Assembly: GCA_937862865.1 (NCBI GenBank)
Contig: CALMFJ010000157.1
Coordinates: 1 to 43,824, forward strand
Direction of reading: 5' to 3'
Length of the DNA stretch: 43,824 bases
Source: an uncultured Pseudomonadota bacterium
Lineage (GTDB): Bacteria > Desulfobacterota > Syntrophorhabdia > Syntrophorhabdales > Syntrophorhabdaceae
The number at the start of each line of letters is the position of its first letter. Positions within the stretch are counted from its first letter, which is position 1. Positions 6,821 through 43,824 of the stretch are shown here, one piece after another. The position numbers were made by a program, and so were the translations under genes. The notes under the pieces are model-generated. The model saw nothing but the letters and a program-made list of their open reading frames with translations, made no database searches and was not told the origin of the DNA.

Positions 6821-6836
6821 TGGCACGATATTTGCC
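6821..6836 (+). promoter_or_regulatory. Sigma-54 (RpoN) promoter
   Basis: TGGCACGATATTTGCC: the invariant GG and GC are exactly 10 nt apart and the sequence matches TGGCAC-N5-TTGC at every core position. Transcription should start near 6846-6848, which gives a leader of about 35 nt to the ATG at 6882 and argues against an in-frame ATG at 6849. Confidence 0.88.
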
Positions 6837-6881
6837 TCAATAAATAACATGATTTGCAAAAAACCATTTCGGGAGGTTACA

Positions 6882-7790: not shown

Positions 7791-8215
7791 CCTTTGTTGC
7801 AGTACTCGTCTTACTCCTTCTCTTTATCATGCCCCCTGCACGGGCCCAGAATTCATATTCTGAGTTCGAGAGGGGGCTTGGGCTTTCTGACCCGCAGAGG
7901 GCGCAGGTGGAAGACATACGGAACAGGTACCAGAACGAGTGGCAGGTGCTGCGGCAGGAATCGGCCCGCAAGAGAATGGAGCTCAGGGACCTCAGCAGAG
8001 ACCCGAATGCCAATGCCGGAAGGATAAACCGGATCCAGAGCGAACTTCAGGAACTTGACACTGCGCGGCACAATTCGTACCAGCAATACCGTTCGGAGGT
8101 TTCGCGGACCCTGAACGAAAGGCAGAGACATCAGTACAACACCTTCTGCGATCAGGAACGAAGAAAAAGAATGATGCGCGAGCGCGGTTCCGGGCCGGGT
8201 TGGCATGGGAGATAA
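7769..8215 (+). CDS. Second Spy/CpxP-like periplasmic protein
   Basis: About 148 aa with a hydrophobic signal segment (MTFVAVLVLLLLFIMPPARA) and a mature helical, charged region of about 115 aa. GLSDPQRAQVEDIRNRYQ and LNERQRHQYNTFCDQER occupy the places of the two LTxxQ-type helices, so I place it in the Spy/periplasmic heavy-metal sensor superfamily. The start is uncertain: ATG 7769 and 7787 both keep the signal peptide, and earlier in-frame ATGs (7712, 7748) would add an unlikely polar N-terminus. It overlaps the lipoprotein gene upstream and the kinase gene downstream (11 nt), so the four are co-translated. It may be the periplasmic inhibitor of the kinase, as ZraP is for ZraS; this is inference. 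Confidence 0.72.
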   Translation: MGSCQSMTFVAVLVLLLLFIMPPARAQNSYSEFERGLGLSDPQRAQVEDIRNRYQNEWQVLRQESARKRMELRDLSRDPNANAGRINRIQSELQELDTARHNSYQQYRSEVSRTLNERQRHQYNTFCDQERRKRMMRERGSGPGWHGR

Positions 8216-9779
8216 ACGGGCTGTTGTCGCCTTCCCATTATTCTTTGCTTTTTTCCTTATTCTCGTGACTCTCGCAGGCTTCTTCCAGATACGCATCATT
8301 CGCGGCAATATCGAGCGGCAGCTCACGGGAGAAGCAGAGGTCATTTTTTCCCATATCGAGAGGGAGATAGACCTCAACCTCGATTACCTTGCCCTGCTCG
8401 ACAGGTCGCCCGCATTGATCACCCCTTATTTTTACAACATCATGTCGTTCGATGAATCGATCATCGACGACATCGACACCGCGCTCACGGAACTCAGCGA
8501 ACAGGGCCTTAACTCCCTCCCCTATGCCAACCTTGTCGAGTATGACATTTCAGGCAAGCCCCTGGCGAGCAAAGGAAAGCCCAACATCCCCGGCGACATC
8601 CTCCGGAAACTGCGCTCCGGCGGCCGGCAGACGGTCATCAGAATGCCGACGCGGCATGACAGGGGCCTTTTGTTCGGCAAGCGTTTCGACAGGCGGATCA
8701 TTGTCGTCAGGATCGGTCCCGGGGACCTCGAGGTGCTTCGGAGAAAGGTGATCCTGAAGGATATAGTCGACCGGGAGGGGAAGAGGTTCAATATAGACGC
8801 GATCAGGATATACGATGAAAAGGGCCGGATCTTCGCCGGTTCAAAGGACGAGCCCAAACGCGGCACCTTCATCCTCGACAGGGGCCTGTCATCCAAACTC
8901 CTTCCCGGCTACCACATGCAGATCTTTGTGTTGAGGGACCTTGCGCGGGACACCATCCAGAGGTCCTCTCTCAGCTTTATCCTGATACTCGCCGTCCTCT
9001 TCATTACGGGCGCAGGAAGCATCTACGCCTTTTTTGTCATGGAGCGCACGTATTCGAAAAAGGTCAAGGAGATGGAGCGAGAGCTCGAGATGAAGGAGCG
9101 CCTGGTGTCGCTCGGCAAGCTCGCCTCGGGGATGGCGCACGAGATCAGGAATCCCTTGAACGCCATCGGCCTGTCGGTTCAACGCCTGAAGAGAGAGTTT
9201 GCCCCGGGCGAAGAAAAGAAAGACGAATACCTGACCTTCCTGGACATCATCAGGAAAGAGCTCACCCGGGTGAACGGGATCGTCGAGGAGTTCCTTCAAT
9301 CGACGCGCGCGCAGGCACCCTTCAGCAAGGAGAGCCTCAGGGACCTCATCGAAGAGGTCATTATCATTGTCGGCGAAAAGGCATCATCCAAGGGTATCTT
9401 CATCGAGAACGCGACGGATACCGGGATCATCATTGATTGCCAGCGGGACAGGCTGAAACAGGCCTTTTACAACATTATCATCAATGCGATCGAATCGATG
9501 CCCGGGGGCGGCAGTATTGCCGTGAACGTGAGGCAAAAGGACGCGAATCTCGAGATATCCGTCAAGGATTCCGGACCGGGCATATCCGACGAAGCCCTGG
9601 GCCGGATATTCGAGTATTATTACACGACCAAGGACAAAGGGATGGGGCTTGGCCTGCCTATTTCCTACATGATCCTGAAAGACCATGGCGGCGACATCAA
9701 AGTGACGAGTGCCGAGGGCCAGGGCACCACATTCACCATCGTGCTGCCAAAGAGCCGGAACAATGCAATGAGCGTATAA
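8205..9779 (+). CDS. ZraS/NtrB-type membrane sensor histidine kinase
   Basis: 524 aa. TM1 at about residues 8-28, a periplasmic sensor region of about 220 residues, TM2 at about 252-275, then HisKA with phospho-accepting H312 in GMAHEIRNPLNAIG, and HATPase_c with N box NIIINAIESMPGG, DSGPGIS, an F box RIFEYYYTTK and GMGLGLPIS. The IRNPLNAI form of the H box is typical of kinases that partner NtrC-family regulators, and the next gene encodes one. By context it senses envelope or metal stress and phosphorylates the 9804-11162 regulator. The start overlaps the preceding gene by 11 nt; the ribosome binding site is weak. Confidence 0.9.
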   Translation: MGDKRAVVAFPLFFAFFLILVTLAGFFQIRIIRGNIERQLTGEAEVIFSHIEREIDLNLDYLALLDRSPALITPYFYNIMSFDESIIDDIDTALTELSEQGLNSLPYANLVEYDISGKPLASKGKPNIPGDILRKLRSGGRQTVIRMPTRHDRGLLFGKRFDRRIIVVRIGPGDLEVLRRKVILKDIVDREGKRFNIDAIRIYDEKGRIFAGSKDEPKRGTFILDRGLSSKLLPGYHMQIFVLRDLARDTIQRSSLSFILILAVLFITGAGSIYAFFVMERTYSKKVKEMERELEMKERLVSLGKLASGMAHEIRNPLNAIGLSVQRLKREFAPGEEKKDEYLTFLDIIRKELTRVNGIVEEFLQSTRAQAPFSKESLRDLIEEVIIIVGEKASSKGIFIENATDTGIIIDCQRDRLKQAFYNIIINAIESMPGGGSIAVNVRQKDANLEISVKDSGPGISDEALGRIFEYYYTTKDKGMGLGLPISYMILKDHGGDIKVTSAEGQGTTFTIVLPKSRNNAMSV

Positions 9780-9803
9780 AACAAAGAAGAGAGGGTTCGC
9801 AAT

Positions 9804-11162
9804 ATGGACAGGGTCGGCATACTGGTTGTTGAGGATGAGGAATCACAAAGGTCGCTCCTTGCAGGGCTGTTAAAGAACGAAGGGTACACGGTCAGCGAGG
9901 CTGCAGATGGCGCCACGGCATACGATCTGCTGCAGAAAGGAATATTCGAGATCGTCCTTCTTGATTACCGCCTGCCGGACACGGACGGACTTGCACTCCT
10001 CAAAAAGATAAAGGAACTGAACCCGTCCACTGAGGTCGTTATGATAACCGCGTTCGGGAGCATCGAAAACGCGGTGGGCGCCCTGAAGGCCGGGGCTTCG
10101 GAGTACCTTACGAAGCCCATCGACCTTGACGATCTCCTCTTCAAGCTTCGCAAGATCGAGGAGAAAACATACCTTATCCGCGAGAACATGGTCCTGCGCG
10201 AAACGCTGCGCGACCGCTTCAAGTCGGAGGAGTTCGTATACCAGAGCGAAAAGATGCACGAGGTGTCGAGCCTTGTCGTGCGGATCGCGAAAACCGACTC
10301 GACCTGCATCATTGGCGGCGAAAGCGGCGTGGGAAAAGAGGTCGTTCTCAACATGATCCATGCCCTGAGCGACCGGAAGAACTTCCCCCTTATCAAGGTG
10401 AACTGCGCCGCAATACCGGAGACGCTCCTTGAAAGCGAGCTTTTCGGCTACGAAAAGGGGGCCTTCACGGGGGCATACCAGCGAAAACCGGGTAAGTTCG
10501 AGCTCGCCAACAAGGGCACAATATTCCTTGACGAAATCGGGGACATTCCGCTCATTCTTCAGTCGAAGCTCCTGAGGGTCATCCAGGAAAGAGAGATAGA
10601 GCGCCTGGGAGGTTCGCACCCGATCAAGGTCGATGTCCGCATCATCGCGGCGACGAACAGGAACCTCGAGGAAGAGGTGAAGAAAGGCACGTTCCGCGAG
10701 GACCTCTACTACCGCCTCAATGTCGTGACCATAAACGTCCCGCCGCTCAGGGAAAGAAAAGAGGACATACCCCTCCTCATCGATTTCTTCCTGAAGAAAT
10801 ACAATCTCAAGCACAAGAAGAACGTCAGGGGACTGACGAGGGAGGCCCGTGACGTCCTTGTCAAGTACGATTACCCGGGCAACGTGCGTGAGCTTGAGAA
10901 CATTCTCGAGCGGGCGATCGTTCTGACGCGGGGGGAGCACATCACGAGCGAAGACCTGCCGAACCTCACCGACCATGCCGGAGCGGCGGGCGACGGCAGT
11001 ATCCGGGGGACCGTGGAATCCCTCGAAAGGTCGATGATCATCGAAGCGCTCGTGAACGCCGATTGGGTCCAGACAAAAGCGGCGCTGACGCTCGGCCTTT
11101 CGGAGCGTATGCTCCGTTACAAGATTAAGAAATACAACATCGTGAGATCATCGCGGCCCTGA
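9804..11162 (+). CDS. NtrC-family sigma-54-dependent response regulator (ZraR-like)
   Basis: 452 aa. Receiver domain with phospho-acceptor D54 (LLDYRLPDTDG); AAA+ domain with Walker A GGESGVGKE (about 171-179), intact GAFTGA loop at 219-224 that contacts sigma-54, Walker B GTIFLDEIGDI, and the arginine-containing RLNVVTINVPPLRER region; C-terminal Fis-type HTH (ALTLGLSERMLRYKIKKYNI). All features of an active enhancer-binding protein are present. It is 24 nt after its cognate kinase gene, with GAGAGGG about 9-14 nt before the ATG. Its most likely target is the sigma-54 promoter at 6821 at the head of this same cluster, giving autoregulation. Confidence 0.94.
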   Translation: MDRVGILVVEDEESQRSLLAGLLKNEGYTVSEAADGATAYDLLQKGIFEIVLLDYRLPDTDGLALLKKIKELNPSTEVVMITAFGSIENAVGALKAGASEYLTKPIDLDDLLFKLRKIEEKTYLIRENMVLRETLRDRFKSEEFVYQSEKMHEVSSLVVRIAKTDSTCIIGGESGVGKEVVLNMIHALSDRKNFPLIKVNCAAIPETLLESELFGYEKGAFTGAYQRKPGKFELANKGTIFLDEIGDIPLILQSKLLRVIQEREIERLGGSHPIKVDVRIIAATNRNLEEEVKKGTFREDLYYRLNVVTINVPPLRERKEDIPLLIDFFLKKYNLKHKKNVRGLTREARDVLVKYDYPGNVRELENILERAIVLTRGEHITSEDLPNLTDHAGAAGDGSIRGTVESLERSMIIEALVNADWVQTKAALTLGLSERMLRYKIKKYNIVRSSRP

Positions 11163-28200: not shown

Positions 28201-29306
28201 ACGTTAAGATTTTCAATATAGACAGGGACCATGCACAGATCAAGCCCCGGCTGATCACAACATTTGAAAACGTCCTGTCGGGCGGGGAATTCATTCTCGG
28301 GAAGGAAGTGCGCGCCCTCGAGGAGGAGTTTGCCGCATATGTGGGAACAAAATACGCTGTCGGCGTCGCGAGCGGAACGGATGCGATAAAAATAGGCGGC
28401 CTCGCCCTCGGATTGAAAGCCGGGGACAGGTTCGTCACGACACCCAACACGTACATAGCGACGGCAATGGCACTGACAGAGCACGGCTGCGTTCCCCGTT
28501 TCTGCGACATCGAGGACGGGTCGTACAACATGGACCCGGCAGCCCTGGAGGACCTGCTGAAAAAGGAGCCCGGCATCAGGCTCTGTATACCGGTCCATCT
28601 CTACGGGCAGCCATGCCGGCTTGATGAGATCAGGGAGATCTGCGGACGGTACGGCGTCATGCTCATGGAAGACGCCTGCCAGGCGCATGGTTCGCGTTAC
28701 AAGGGCAGGAACGTCGGGACGATGAGCGATGTCGCCGCCTTCAGCTTTTACCCGACGAAAAATCTCGGCTGCTACGGTGACGGCGGGATGATCGTCACGG
28801 ACAACGACGAGGCGTACAAACAGATGCTGATACTCCGCGCCCACGGCCAGACCGACCGCCATGTTCACGACGTGCAGGGTTTCGTATCGAGGCTTGACGA
28901 ACTCCAGGCCGCTCTTGTGCGCGTGAAGCTGCCCCATCTCGACGACTGGAACATCGCACGGAGGCGCAATGCGTCCCTTTACGACGCGGGCCTCGAAGGC
29001 CTGCCCGTGAAGAAACCGGCCGAAGAGCCCTATGCATATCATGTCTACCACCTCTACGTCATAGCCGTTGAGGAGCGCGAGCCGTTACGGGCTTATCTCG
29101 GCGAGAGGGGGATCATAACCCTCGTCCATTACCCGACACCCATACATCTCCAGAAGGTCTACTCTCACCTGGGATACGGGCCCGGTTCTTTCCCCGTCGC
29201 CGAAAGGGCGGCCCGGCGGATCATCTCCCTGCCCATCTATCCGTCGCTTAACGAAGACGAGATAGCATACGTGTGCGAGGCGATAAGCGGGTTTTACCGG
29301 AAATGA
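28197..29306 (+). CDS. DegT/DnrJ/EryC1/StrS-family sugar aminotransferase
   Basis: 369 aa PLP enzyme of fold type I. SGTDAIKIGGLALGL, EDACQAHGSRYKG (cofactor Asp) and the PLP-binding lysine K188 in FYPTKNLGCYGDGGM. These enzymes convert keto-sugar nucleotides to amino-sugar nucleotides such as dTDP-3- or 4-amino sugars. With the SDR at 26480 it suggests the LPS carries an amino sugar. Tight ATGA overlaps on both sides indicate strict co-expression. Confidence 0.92.
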   Translation: MNVKIFNIDRDHAQIKPRLITTFENVLSGGEFILGKEVRALEEEFAAYVGTKYAVGVASGTDAIKIGGLALGLKAGDRFVTTPNTYIATAMALTEHGCVPRFCDIEDGSYNMDPAALEDLLKKEPGIRLCIPVHLYGQPCRLDEIREICGRYGVMLMEDACQAHGSRYKGRNVGTMSDVAAFSFYPTKNLGCYGDGGMIVTDNDEAYKQMLILRAHGQTDRHVHDVQGFVSRLDELQAALVRVKLPHLDDWNIARRRNASLYDAGLEGLPVKKPAEEPYAYHVYHLYVIAVEEREPLRAYLGERGIITLVHYPTPIHLQKVYSHLGYGPGSFPVAERAARRIISLPIYPSLNEDEIAYVCEAISGFYRK

Positions 29307-41043: not shown

Positions 41044-42995
41044 TAGCCGACATAGCACTGCCTATCCCCGTCGGCAAGTATTTTTCCTATTCAGTACCGG
41101 ATGAGATCGCCCCCTGCCTTTCAGTATGGTCGCGGGTGCGCGTCCCTTTCCATCAAAGGGACGCTGTCGGCGTCGTTGCGGCCTTACGGGAAGGTGATCC
41201 CGGGGGCCTGAAACCGGTGATCGAACCTCTCGAGTTCTTCCCGCTCATCGACGACAAGCTTGCCGCCCTCGCCGGCTGGGCGTCCTCATTCTATCTCGCG
41301 CCGATGGGGCTCGTTATGAAACACGCCCTTCCGCCGGTGCGCGATATCGAGCGGTATCTCGTTGCCGGGGAAGCGGACCGCCCGGAGGCAGGCCCGGTAC
41401 AGCTAAGCAGGATGGCCAGGCGGACGGGGCGCATGCGGCTTATTGAACTATACAGGCAGGGCTTGCTTGTCCTTCGCGACAGTTTGGCGGGCAATGAGTT
41501 CACGGCAGTGAAATCGCCCGTCCCGGGCGAAGCTCAAGGGGGAGTCGGGCAAACTGTTCTCATCGACTCGATCGAAAGGCGCCTCGAAAAATACATTTCG
41601 CTCGTCGGCACACACCTCGAGAACAAAGGGAACGTCCTTTTTCTCCTGCCGGACCACTACGCGGCCGGGGCATACTTCACGCAGAAGATGAAGGCATTGT
41701 ATGGTGACCGGGTACTCTGGTCCAGCTCGGGTGTGCCGGTTAAGCAGCGGATGGAGACATTCTTCAGGGCCCGCCATGGCGGGGGGCATATCATCCTCGG
41801 CAATAAAAGCCTCGTATTTCTCCCGGTCTGCAACCTGTCGCTCATCATCGCGGAGCGGTACGACGATGACGAATACAGGAACGAGGAAGGCTTCAAGTTC
41901 AACGCGGCGCGCACAGCGGTCGAACGTGCCCGCCTCTGCGGCGTCCCTGCTGTTCTGGGCAGTGCGGCATGCTCTCTGGACATCCTCCACCACGCCCTAA
42001 GGACCGGGACCGCCGTGCACTTTTGTAAACCGTTCGCAGAGCACTCCCCAAAGACCATACGTTCACGGTCGTCGGGGGAATTGCTCGACCGCCTCTGCGC
42101 TGATATCGGGGATGCCGCCCGCAGCGGCAAAAGCATTGCCGTCTACGTGCCCCGCAAGGAGTATGGCTCGTACATCAGGTGCCAGGTCTGCAGGGAAGAC
42201 CTTGTATGCGAAAAATGCGGGGCACCGCTCGATTACGACAGGGAGACCGGCGGGCTGCACTGTCCGGCCTGCGCAAGTGCACACCCCTATATCGATGCGT
42301 GTCCCCACTGCGGAAGCCGCATGATCGGTTTCGCAAGGATAGGCGCATCCTTTGTTCACGAGCACATTTCCCGCACCAATCCCGATGTCAACCCGACGCT
42401 TATCACGGGTGATTCACTGAAGAAGGAATTATCCCTCCTCCGCAAGAAAAGTTCCCGGGGGGCCCGATGCCTCGTCGGGACCCAGGCCCTTTCGAAACTT
42501 TACGACTATCACTTCGACAGGCTTTTTCTTGTTGACTGGGAAGAATTGCGGAAGATGTCCGGGTTCCGGTCCGATGAAAAGACCCATCAGGTGCTGTCCA
42601 ATCTCATCGATGCCCTTACGCCCGACGTGATAGTCTGCTATTCCAGGAGAAAACAGTTCGTGGACATCGCCACCTACCTCGATACCGCCGGGTTCTACGA
42701 GACCGAGCTCCAAAAACGCAAGGAAGCCGATTTTCCCCCTTTTACGAGGATGTTCACAATTGAAGCTCGCGCAAAGACCCGGGCCGCCGCCGACCGCGCC
42801 CTGACGAAGGTCAAAGCCGTGATCTCAGACCACAACCTCGACCCTTACGTTTTCGGCACCGTCCCCGCAACCAAAGGCCCCTTCCACGCATGGAAAACCC
42901 TCCTGAAAGGCCCGGAAGACCTTCTCAACGACGCCTTCCCCGACCTCTACAACATCCCCGGCATAGAAATAGAACCCGACCCGGCTAATTTTTGA
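41040..42995 (+). CDS. priA: PriA-like primosomal protein N' with degenerate helicase motifs
   Basis: 651 aa. The N-terminal 3'-DNA-binding domain (YFSYSVPDE...RVRVPFHQRDAVGVV) and all eight zinc-binding cysteines are present (C381, C384, C390, C393, C408, C411, C421, C424). The ATPase motifs are not: the Walker A position (about 173-188) reads LIDSIERRLEKY instead of GVTGSGKT, the DEEH position (271-275) reads AERYD, and the QVAGRAGR motif VI is replaced by QVLSNLIDAL. Helicase activity is therefore unlikely; a role in loading the replicative helicase at stalled forks could survive, as proposed for actinobacterial PriA. Whether another PriA exists in the genome is unknown. Follows murI with an ATGA overlap. 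Confidence 0.87.
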   Translation: MIADIALPIPVGKYFSYSVPDEIAPCLSVWSRVRVPFHQRDAVGVVAALREGDPGGLKPVIEPLEFFPLIDDKLAALAGWASSFYLAPMGLVMKHALPPVRDIERYLVAGEADRPEAGPVQLSRMARRTGRMRLIELYRQGLLVLRDSLAGNEFTAVKSPVPGEAQGGVGQTVLIDSIERRLEKYISLVGTHLENKGNVLFLLPDHYAAGAYFTQKMKALYGDRVLWSSSGVPVKQRMETFFRARHGGGHIILGNKSLVFLPVCNLSLIIAERYDDDEYRNEEGFKFNAARTAVERARLCGVPAVLGSAACSLDILHHALRTGTAVHFCKPFAEHSPKTIRSRSSGELLDRLCADIGDAARSGKSIAVYVPRKEYGSYIRCQVCREDLVCEKCGAPLDYDRETGGLHCPACASAHPYIDACPHCGSRMIGFARIGASFVHEHISRTNPDVNPTLITGDSLKKELSLLRKKSSRGARCLVGTQALSKLYDYHFDRLFLVDWEELRKMSGFRSDEKTHQVLSNLIDALTPDVIVCYSRRKQFVDIATYLDTAGFYETELQKRKEADFPPFTRMFTIEARAKTRAAADRALTKVKAVISDHNLDPYVFGTVPATKGPFHAWKTLLKGPEDLLNDAFPDLYNIPGIEIEPDPANF

Positions 42996-43005
42996 CCATA
43001 AAAAA

Positions 43006-43023
43006 GGGAGGCTTGCGCCTCCC
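43006..43023 (-). terminator. Intrinsic terminator of the secreted-protein gene
   Basis: GGGAGGC / GCCTCCC, 7-bp stem with TTGC loop. On the minus strand it is followed by TTTTTT, and it lies 20 nt after the stop of the gene at 43044. It may also help end the convergent priA transcript. Confidence 0.85.
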
Positions 43024-43043: not shown

Positions 43044-43511
43044 CTACTTCTTTGCAGGAGCTGCGGGTTTGTCCGCTGCGGGTTTGTCCGCTGCGGGTTT
43101 GTCCGCTGCTTTCTTCTCTGCTTTCTTCTCTTTGGCTTTCTCTTTCACCGCGCCAGCCTTTGTTACTGACTTTGCGATGTTCTTGCCGTCTTTCTCCACG
43201 TAGACAACGACGACCTTGTCGCCAGCTGCTACTTTCTTGCCCATCTTCGCCTTGGCAACGTCGAAGGTCATTTCGGTTTCGCCCTTTACAACGATCGTCT
43301 TTGCTGCATCGTCTTTGCTGACGAACTCACCTTCAAACTTCTTCACGCCGGCTTTCTTGGCTTTCTCAACGGCTTTCTCCTTTGCGGGTTTCTCCGTTGC
43401 TGCGGCCGGTTTGTCTGTTGCAGGGGCTTTCTTCTCCTCTGCTGCATACACGGTCGTCACGAAGGCCACGCCGATGATGATCGCGAGAACCAACATTAAT
43501 ACTTTCTTCAT
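43044..43511 (-). CDS. Secreted Lys/Ala/Pro-rich protein with one small beta domain
   Basis: 155 aa. Signal peptide MKKVLMLVLAIIIGVAFVTTVYA, then a disordered Lys/Ala/Pro stretch (about 24-55), a compact domain of about 60 residues (FEGEFVSKDDAAKTIVVKG...AAGDKVVVVYVEKDGKNIAKSV) suggestive of a small beta-barrel, and a repetitive tail with four ADKPA-type repeats. Function not recognised. The ATG at 43511 is preferred because GGAGGAGGTG lies 8 nt upstream; the frame stays open to 43727 but that part overlaps the promoter region. Own terminator and own sigma-54 promoter, so it is a single-gene regulon member. Confidence 0.82.
   Translation of the reverse strand: MKKVLMLVLAIIIGVAFVTTVYAAEEKKAPATDKPAAATEKPAKEKAVEKAKKAGVKKFEGEFVSKDDAAKTIVVKGETEMTFDVAKAKMGKKVAAGDKVVVVYVEKDGKNIAKSVTKAGAVKEKAKEKKAEKKAADKPAADKPAADKPAAPAKK
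43062..43111. repeat. 15-bp in-gene tandem repeat
   Basis: Three near-identical 15-nt units (GCGGGTTTGTCCGCT) encoding the ADKPA tail repeats of the secreted protein. Prone to length variation in whole codons. Confidence 0.85.
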
Positions 43512-43567
43512 ATTCTTTTCACCTCCTCCCCTTTTATTGGTTACATTGAATTGCATGACTTTGTTAT

Positions 43568-43583
43568 TGCATTCCCCGTGCCA
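43568..43583 (-). promoter_or_regulatory. Sigma-54 (RpoN) promoter of the secreted-protein gene
   Basis: Minus strand: TGGCACGGGGAATGCA with GG (43582-43581) and GC (43570-43569) 10 nt apart. Predicted start near 43557, giving a leader of about 45 nt with the strong ribosome binding site. Confidence 0.83.
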
Positions 43584-43648
43584 AATACATAACATTCTGA
43601 TTTTACTCATAAAGATATTTTTCATGCACCGGAGAAAGAACCTTATAA

Positions 43649-43725
43649 TCGGAAATTTCCGACTAAAATGCCATTTAAGCATCGGAAATCTCCGACTCCC
43701 CATTTTCGGGTCGGACAATTCCGAC
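43649..43725 (-). promoter_or_regulatory. Three palindromic enhancer sites (candidate UAS)
   Basis: TCGGAAATTTCCGA (43649-43662, perfect), TCGGAAATCTCCGA (43682-43695, one mismatch) and GTCGGACAATTCCGAC (43710-43725, imperfect). Centre spacings are about 33 and 29 nt, near three helical turns. They lie about 65-155 nt upstream of the sigma-54 promoter, the usual place for activator binding. Confidence 0.72.
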
Positions 43726-43824
43726 AAGCAAGAACGGCTAACGGCTAAAGGTAAGAATAATGATCAGTTATAAAAACAGAACCTTGTATGATACTCCCCG
43801 TGGAATATCACAAACAATCCATGA
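43726..43824. other. Window edge: short ACGGCTA duplication, otherwise no feature seen
   Basis: ACGGCTA occurs twice in tandem at 43734-43747, again a 7-bp unit. The rest is AT-rich with no convincing gene or RNA. Confidence 0.5.

Follow-up and report, generated by a model that had tools for sequence, protein, structure and literature searches.

A conserved sigma-54 promoter and candidate activator dyads upstream of a small exported Lys/Ala/Pro-rich protein gene in a Syntrophorhabdaceae genome

Results

Features of the locus

The locus lies at one end of the window, that is, the whole 43,824-nucleotide stretch analysed here (contig C157 of an uncultured Syntrophorhabdaceae bacterium). It comprises one short gene on the minus strand and the elements around it:

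43044..43511 (-), gene for a 155-aa exported protein (ATG at 43511, stop at 43044; translation); the predicted product consists of a signal peptide (about residues 1-23), a Lys/Ala/Pro-rich linker, a CusF-like OB core and a basic tail
43152..43352 (-), codons of the predicted OB-fold core, residues 54-120 (structure model and fold match)
43519..43527 (-), perfect Shine-Dalgarno AGGAGGTGA, 7 nt before the ATG (sequence)
43568..43583 (-), -24/-12 (sigma-54) promoter TGGCACGGGGAATGCA, GG at 43582-43581 and GC at 43570-43569
43649..43662 (no strand), candidate activator dyad 1, proximal, exact TCGGAAATTTCCGA, position kept in relatives
43682..43695 (no strand), candidate activator dyad 2, 33 bp from dyad 1, one mismatch
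43711..43724 (no strand), candidate activator dyad 3, 29 bp from dyad 2, two mismatches
43000..43023 (-), hairpin and T6, intrinsic-terminator-like (hairpin 43006-43023, stem 7, GCAA loop)

The promoter, which a first-pass annotation had called textbook, matches 11 of 12 consensus positions and has the GG-N10-GC arrangement with TGGCAC/TTGC-like flanks; its GG and GC positions make the predicted start near 43557 consistent. The description held in relatives, as the promoter was kept in all 25 orthologous upstream regions tested (at least 9/12 positions, GG at -58 to -72; shuffles 1.1%), and this genome encodes RpoN (TIGR02395, 444 bits, above the cut-off). When the -24/-12 consensus was searched genome-wide with up to two mismatches, it was not enriched and gave fewer matches than the reversed-pattern control. 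The strength of the promoter is its conservation, and the motif match by itself is not unusual. No sigma-70-like site was found in the region. The very strong ribosome binding site described before was also recovered, and Shine-Dalgarno-like sites were present in nearly all orthologous upstream regions displayed. The claim of a dedicated terminator was not supported: the hairpin lies between the gene and the convergent priA, which ends at 42995, and it is not demonstrably dedicated because it can also serve priA. The gene may be expressed at a high level and in a tightly conditional manner, as was originally suggested. Rfam and tRNA scans gave no match at the site; elsewhere, ARAGORN reported a tRNA-Phe at window positions 28931-29014 (-) with the unusual anticodon AAA, possibly a false positive.

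All three palindromes match TCGGA-N4-TCCGA exactly, in agreement with the earlier description of three spaced palindromes, and they are centred roughly 98, 131 and 160 bp upstream of the predicted start. The 2.64-Mb genome contains five such sites, three of them here and two within coding ORFs, which from our reading of the ORFs we take to encode a V/A-type ATPase A subunit and a UspA-like protein. When the window was simulated 300 times with a Markov model, a simulated sequence had 0.17 dyads on average, and none carried two within 60 bp. A search of the genome for dyads near other promoters and near an enhancer-binding protein (EBP) gene had been proposed as a check: the only other sites are the two coding ones, and an EBP gene adjoins the locus in relatives.

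Conservation of the dyads and their targets

Absence of the dyads from orthologous upstream regions would have refuted the first-pass interpretation, and the outcome favoured it: of the 46 genomes of the class, 24 have paired dyads, mostly 33 bp apart, whereas no pair was obtained with the reversed control pattern. Most relatives have two dyads, and dyad 3 is extra in this genome. The distance from the proximal dyad to the -24 element was 64-67 or 73-74 bp, roughly one helical turn apart, in 17 contigs, several of which are labelled Syntrophorhabdus or Syntrophorhabdaceae and the rest 'Deltaproteobacteria', Syntrophus or Syntrophobacterales MAGs.

Most dyad-bearing genomes have one dyad pair only. 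In G009, G016, G043 and G025, dyads are distant from the EBP gene and lie upstream of genes for exported Lys/Ala/Pro-rich proteins, some of which have no OB core. The description 'single target' is therefore limited to this genome and many others, and several relatives have more. Two further arrangements were observed. In G027 (L124/L095), the exported-protein gene is apparently present in two tandem copies, each having a dyad pair and a -24/-12 promoter of its own, and in G041 (L147, 3551-3596) a second dyad pair and promoter-like site precede an ORF that does not resemble the Lys/Ala-rich proteins and may be a further target.

Scanning the phylum for a single dyad with GG-N10-GC after it proved too loose, with matches about as common as in the control. 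In a dyad-pair scan of named genomes, the inspected matches outside Syntrophorhabdales-type genomes were mostly coding or had no promoter at the right distance, and for these reasons they were taken as chance.

A histidine kinase-EBP pair adjoins the locus

In relatives, gltX comes first, then the genes for a histidine kinase and a response-regulator EBP, the dyads, the promoter and the exported-protein gene, with priA and murI after these on the opposite strand (gltX, priA and murI are presumed identities, assigned from the translations). The dyads lie at or near the stop codon of the EBP gene. By Pfam, the kinase of the relatives has a HAMP-HisKA-HATPase arrangement, and the regulator has a receiver and a Sigma54_activat domain. 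The distant match of the kinase to a heavy-metal sensor was below the cut-off. In family f3 (L100, L101, L102) the kinase is about 600 aa long against 490 in most of the other family, and the additional ~100 residues suggest a different sensor region.

In this genome, the EBP gene is at about C151:80-1519 and the kinase gene at C151:1530-3014, with gltX beyond; the two proteins are 82% and 76% identical, respectively, to those of relative G008. GAFTGA, Walker A and the receiver residues are all intact in the EBP. Contig C151 terminates in repetitive sequence 76 bases past the EBP stop, and the window contig starts about 100 bp upstream of dyad 3. Because the EBP gene and the promoter are on different contigs, we infer the junction between C151 and C157 from synteny. 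The repetitive sequence (L176:1-76) consists of GGCGAAC repeats and a TCATCCCGGTGCTTGACACCGGGATCCA inverted repeat and probably broke the assembly between the two contigs; related motifs CTTTAGCCGTTAGCCGTT occur near the window end (43725-43824).

The exported protein

The first-pass annotation had described a small secreted Lys/Ala/Pro-rich protein, and this was confirmed by the signal peptide and by the computed composition of the mature part (55% K+A+P, pI 9.7). In place of 'unknown function', a more specific description is now possible: a CusF-like OB core carrying basic tails. Residues 54-120 were modelled as an OB fold at a pLDDT of about 90, and the top structural match of this core was CusF (2vb2; Z 11.6, rmsd 1.1 over 65 residues). 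Furthermore, the protein gave a weak match to Pfam CusF_Ec and scored 19 bits, below the cut-off of 50, with the Asr model NF033636 (NCBIfam); PDB sequence searches gave no informative match. The translated mature part lacks His, Trp and Cys altogether and has only two Met, and since it is without His and Trp, the CusF metal site, to which Trp44 belongs, is absent. Of 60 related genomes, 45 had a match to the exported protein, and the weaker matches may reflect common Lys/Ala-rich composition.

The DNA-binding domain and the operator vary together

To our knowledge, sigma-54 activators almost always have a Fis-type domain. The EBPs of the window's clade are without the Fis-type HTH_8 and end in LTAAEYRLYLYL...EPKEIxERLGINRDTFFVGIxKLKELGLYDYK. 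HTH_8 was not detected up to E 1 in the C-terminal fragments of five relatives, nor up to E 0.01 in the EBP of this genome. The C-terminal domain gave weak Pfam matches to HTH_36, MarR_2 and HTH_Crp_2, all below the cut-offs, and its structural matches were mostly to winged helices (best Foldseek E 0.44, highest Z 6.6). The domain may tentatively be called winged-helix-like, with no single match significant.

At the same locus in G038, G040, G042, G019 and G017, the EBP does have HTH_8, and, judged by sequence, the C-termini of the EBPs of G020, G030 and G024 are of this kind too. Relatives with a Fis-type EBP have TTCGT-N6/7-ACGAA operators or close variants, and in G020 this operator, too, is distant from its EBP gene. 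Among the 46 genomes of the class, 23 have both a winged-helix-type EBP and a TCGGA pair and 19 have neither; in three the EBP occurs with no exact pair, and in one the pair occurs without such an EBP (Fisher p 8.5e-9, in which the relatedness of the genomes is not corrected for). The three genomes with no exact pair are G021 and G023, with degenerate dyads, and G015, with TCTAA-N4-TTAGA. In G025, dyads are present and no winged-helix-type EBP was detected. The single palindrome of G015, together with an RD -> KQ change in the recognition helix, is suggestive of a third operator type. The operator appears to belong to a conserved histidine kinase-EBP module in which the type of DNA-binding domain predicts the operator sequence.

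The tree built from the receiver and AAA+ regions requires at least two changes of domain type, with some branches weakly supported; on this basis, the domain was probably replaced inside one orthologous regulator, with the operator changing to match. Outside the class, the sampled genomes of the phylum yielded no domain of the winged-helix type. We are inclined to think, with some reservation, that a Fis-type domain was replaced by the winged-helix-like one in a syntenic orthologous EBP and that the operators of its targets, including distant ones, were rewritten to match.

Discussion

The original proposal, in which sigma-54 control is combined with activator dyads further upstream, agrees with the conserved promoter and dyads, the neighbouring EBP in relatives and the presence of RpoN, and the regulatory architecture of the locus is well supported. 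We consider it likely that the locus is the output promoter of a conserved two-component sigma-54 module that drives one small exported polycation. In the proposed circuit, a membrane histidine kinase (HAMP, HisKA, HATPase) would sense an extracytoplasmic cue and phosphorylate an NtrC-class response regulator made up of a receiver, an AAA+ domain with GAFTGA and, at the C-terminus, a winged-helix-like domain. The regulator would then oligomerise on the TCGGA-N4-TCCGA dyads, located near -98, -131 and -160, and drive RNA polymerase-sigma54 at the -24/-12 promoter. The main product, apparently the sole one in this genome, would be a small exported polycation whose CusF-like OB core is without the CusF metal ligands. 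What has been established computationally is the anatomy of the sequence, conservation and synteny, the intactness of the catalytic motifs and the correspondence of DNA-binding-domain type with operator type. Binding, phosphorelay, inducibility, the role of the exported protein and the signal are inferred; the pairing of the EBP with the dyads is likewise predicted.

Other explanations of the locus were weighed against this circuit. The dyads might be bound by another regulator, for example a repressor, with the neighbouring kinase-EBP pair acting elsewhere: near-perfect palindromes also fit dimeric repressors, and the likeness of the EBP C-terminal domain to MarR/CRP-like folds is only weak. 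We regard this as unlikely, since the dyads occur in two to three copies 98-160 bp upstream of a -24/-12 promoter, the EBP domain is associated with the operator across 46 genomes, and the dyads track the target where it is distant from the EBP. That the gene is an ordinary sigma-70 gene, with dyads and -24/-12 motif present by chance, would accord with the lack of genomic enrichment of the promoter motif; it is very improbable given that orthologues conserve both promoter and spacing, that the region yielded no sigma-70-like site and that none of the 300 simulations placed two dyads within 60 bp.

As for the product, it could be a metal-controlled periplasmic copper/silver chaperone of the CusF kind, to which the top structural match, the weak CusF_Ec match and the distant heavy-metal-sensor match of the kinase all point. 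The CusF metal site is formed by His36, Trp44, Met47 and Met49 (PMC9436033, PMC9302797). The exported protein resembles CusF and SilF as a small exported OB fold but differs in lacking the metal-ligand His and Trp and in having Lys/Ala/Pro-rich tails. Its mature part is also free of Cys and has two Met only, no Cus-type transporter genes were seen adjoining the locus in relatives, and some dyad-regulated proteins are entirely without an OB core; a chaperone role of this kind is improbable, slightly more so than the binding of the dyads by another regulator. Acid shock protein (Asr) is similar in being exported, basic and of low complexity, although the NCBIfam match is weak, below the cut-off and maybe compositional. 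We know of no OB core in Asr. Asr has been described as a periplasmic chaperone that is intrinsically disordered (PMC10746267). We propose that the exported polycation may work in the envelope or extracellularly in the manner of ZraP or Asr.

Returning to the two-component sigma-54 module, its closest working analogue is ZraPSR of E. coli and Salmonella, which likewise combines a histidine kinase and NtrC-class EBP with a sigma-54 promoter and one main adjacent target, a small periplasmic protein. In E. coli, ZraR has been assigned to the (conditional) single-target regulators (PMC8249747, PMC4987338). In contrast to ZraPSR, the present locus is not divergent, its DNA-binding domain is not Fis-type, and its product is a CusF-like polycation rather than the zinc chaperone ZraP; no zinc-binding ZraP product is encoded at the locus, the OB protein having no His or Cys. 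The NCBIfam equivalogs for ZraR and ZraS gave 366.7 bits (cut-off 760) and 174.2 bits (cut-off 479) on relative G032, so that neither cut-off was reached, and the module is not a family member by score or product. As a working model, we suggest a ZraPSR-like, near single-target envelope response.

The EBP itself resembles NtrC-family (AtoC-like) response regulators in its receiver, its AAA+ domain with GAFTGA and the adjacent histidine kinase, but HTH_8 (Fis) is missing from the C-terminus in the window's clade while present at the same locus in relatives. DVU0151 has been reported as the sole D. vulgaris EBP that has no annotated Fis domain, and some of its orthologues match a winged-helix model (PMC4641369). 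Because such a match has been reported, absence of the Fis domain is rare but not unprecedented. DVU0151 differs as a one-component regulator of a transport operon in Desulfovibrionales. Our literature search found nothing on a kinase-EBP/dyad system in Syntrophorhabdus, nor a description of a Fis/winged-helix exchange together with the operator inside one orthologous regulator. The joint exchange of domain and operator at a fixed locus, in a regulator whose targets are few at most, would represent a natural experiment on how a regulator is retargeted without losing its job. Moreover, a little-studied syntrophic lineage gains a sensing circuit that is concrete and testable, along with an exported polycation that is open to assay.

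The window also contains a second histidine kinase and NtrC-class EBP pair at 8205-11162 (+), and a -24/-12-like site, TGGCACGATATTTGCC, at 6821-6836, just before an ORF at 6849.
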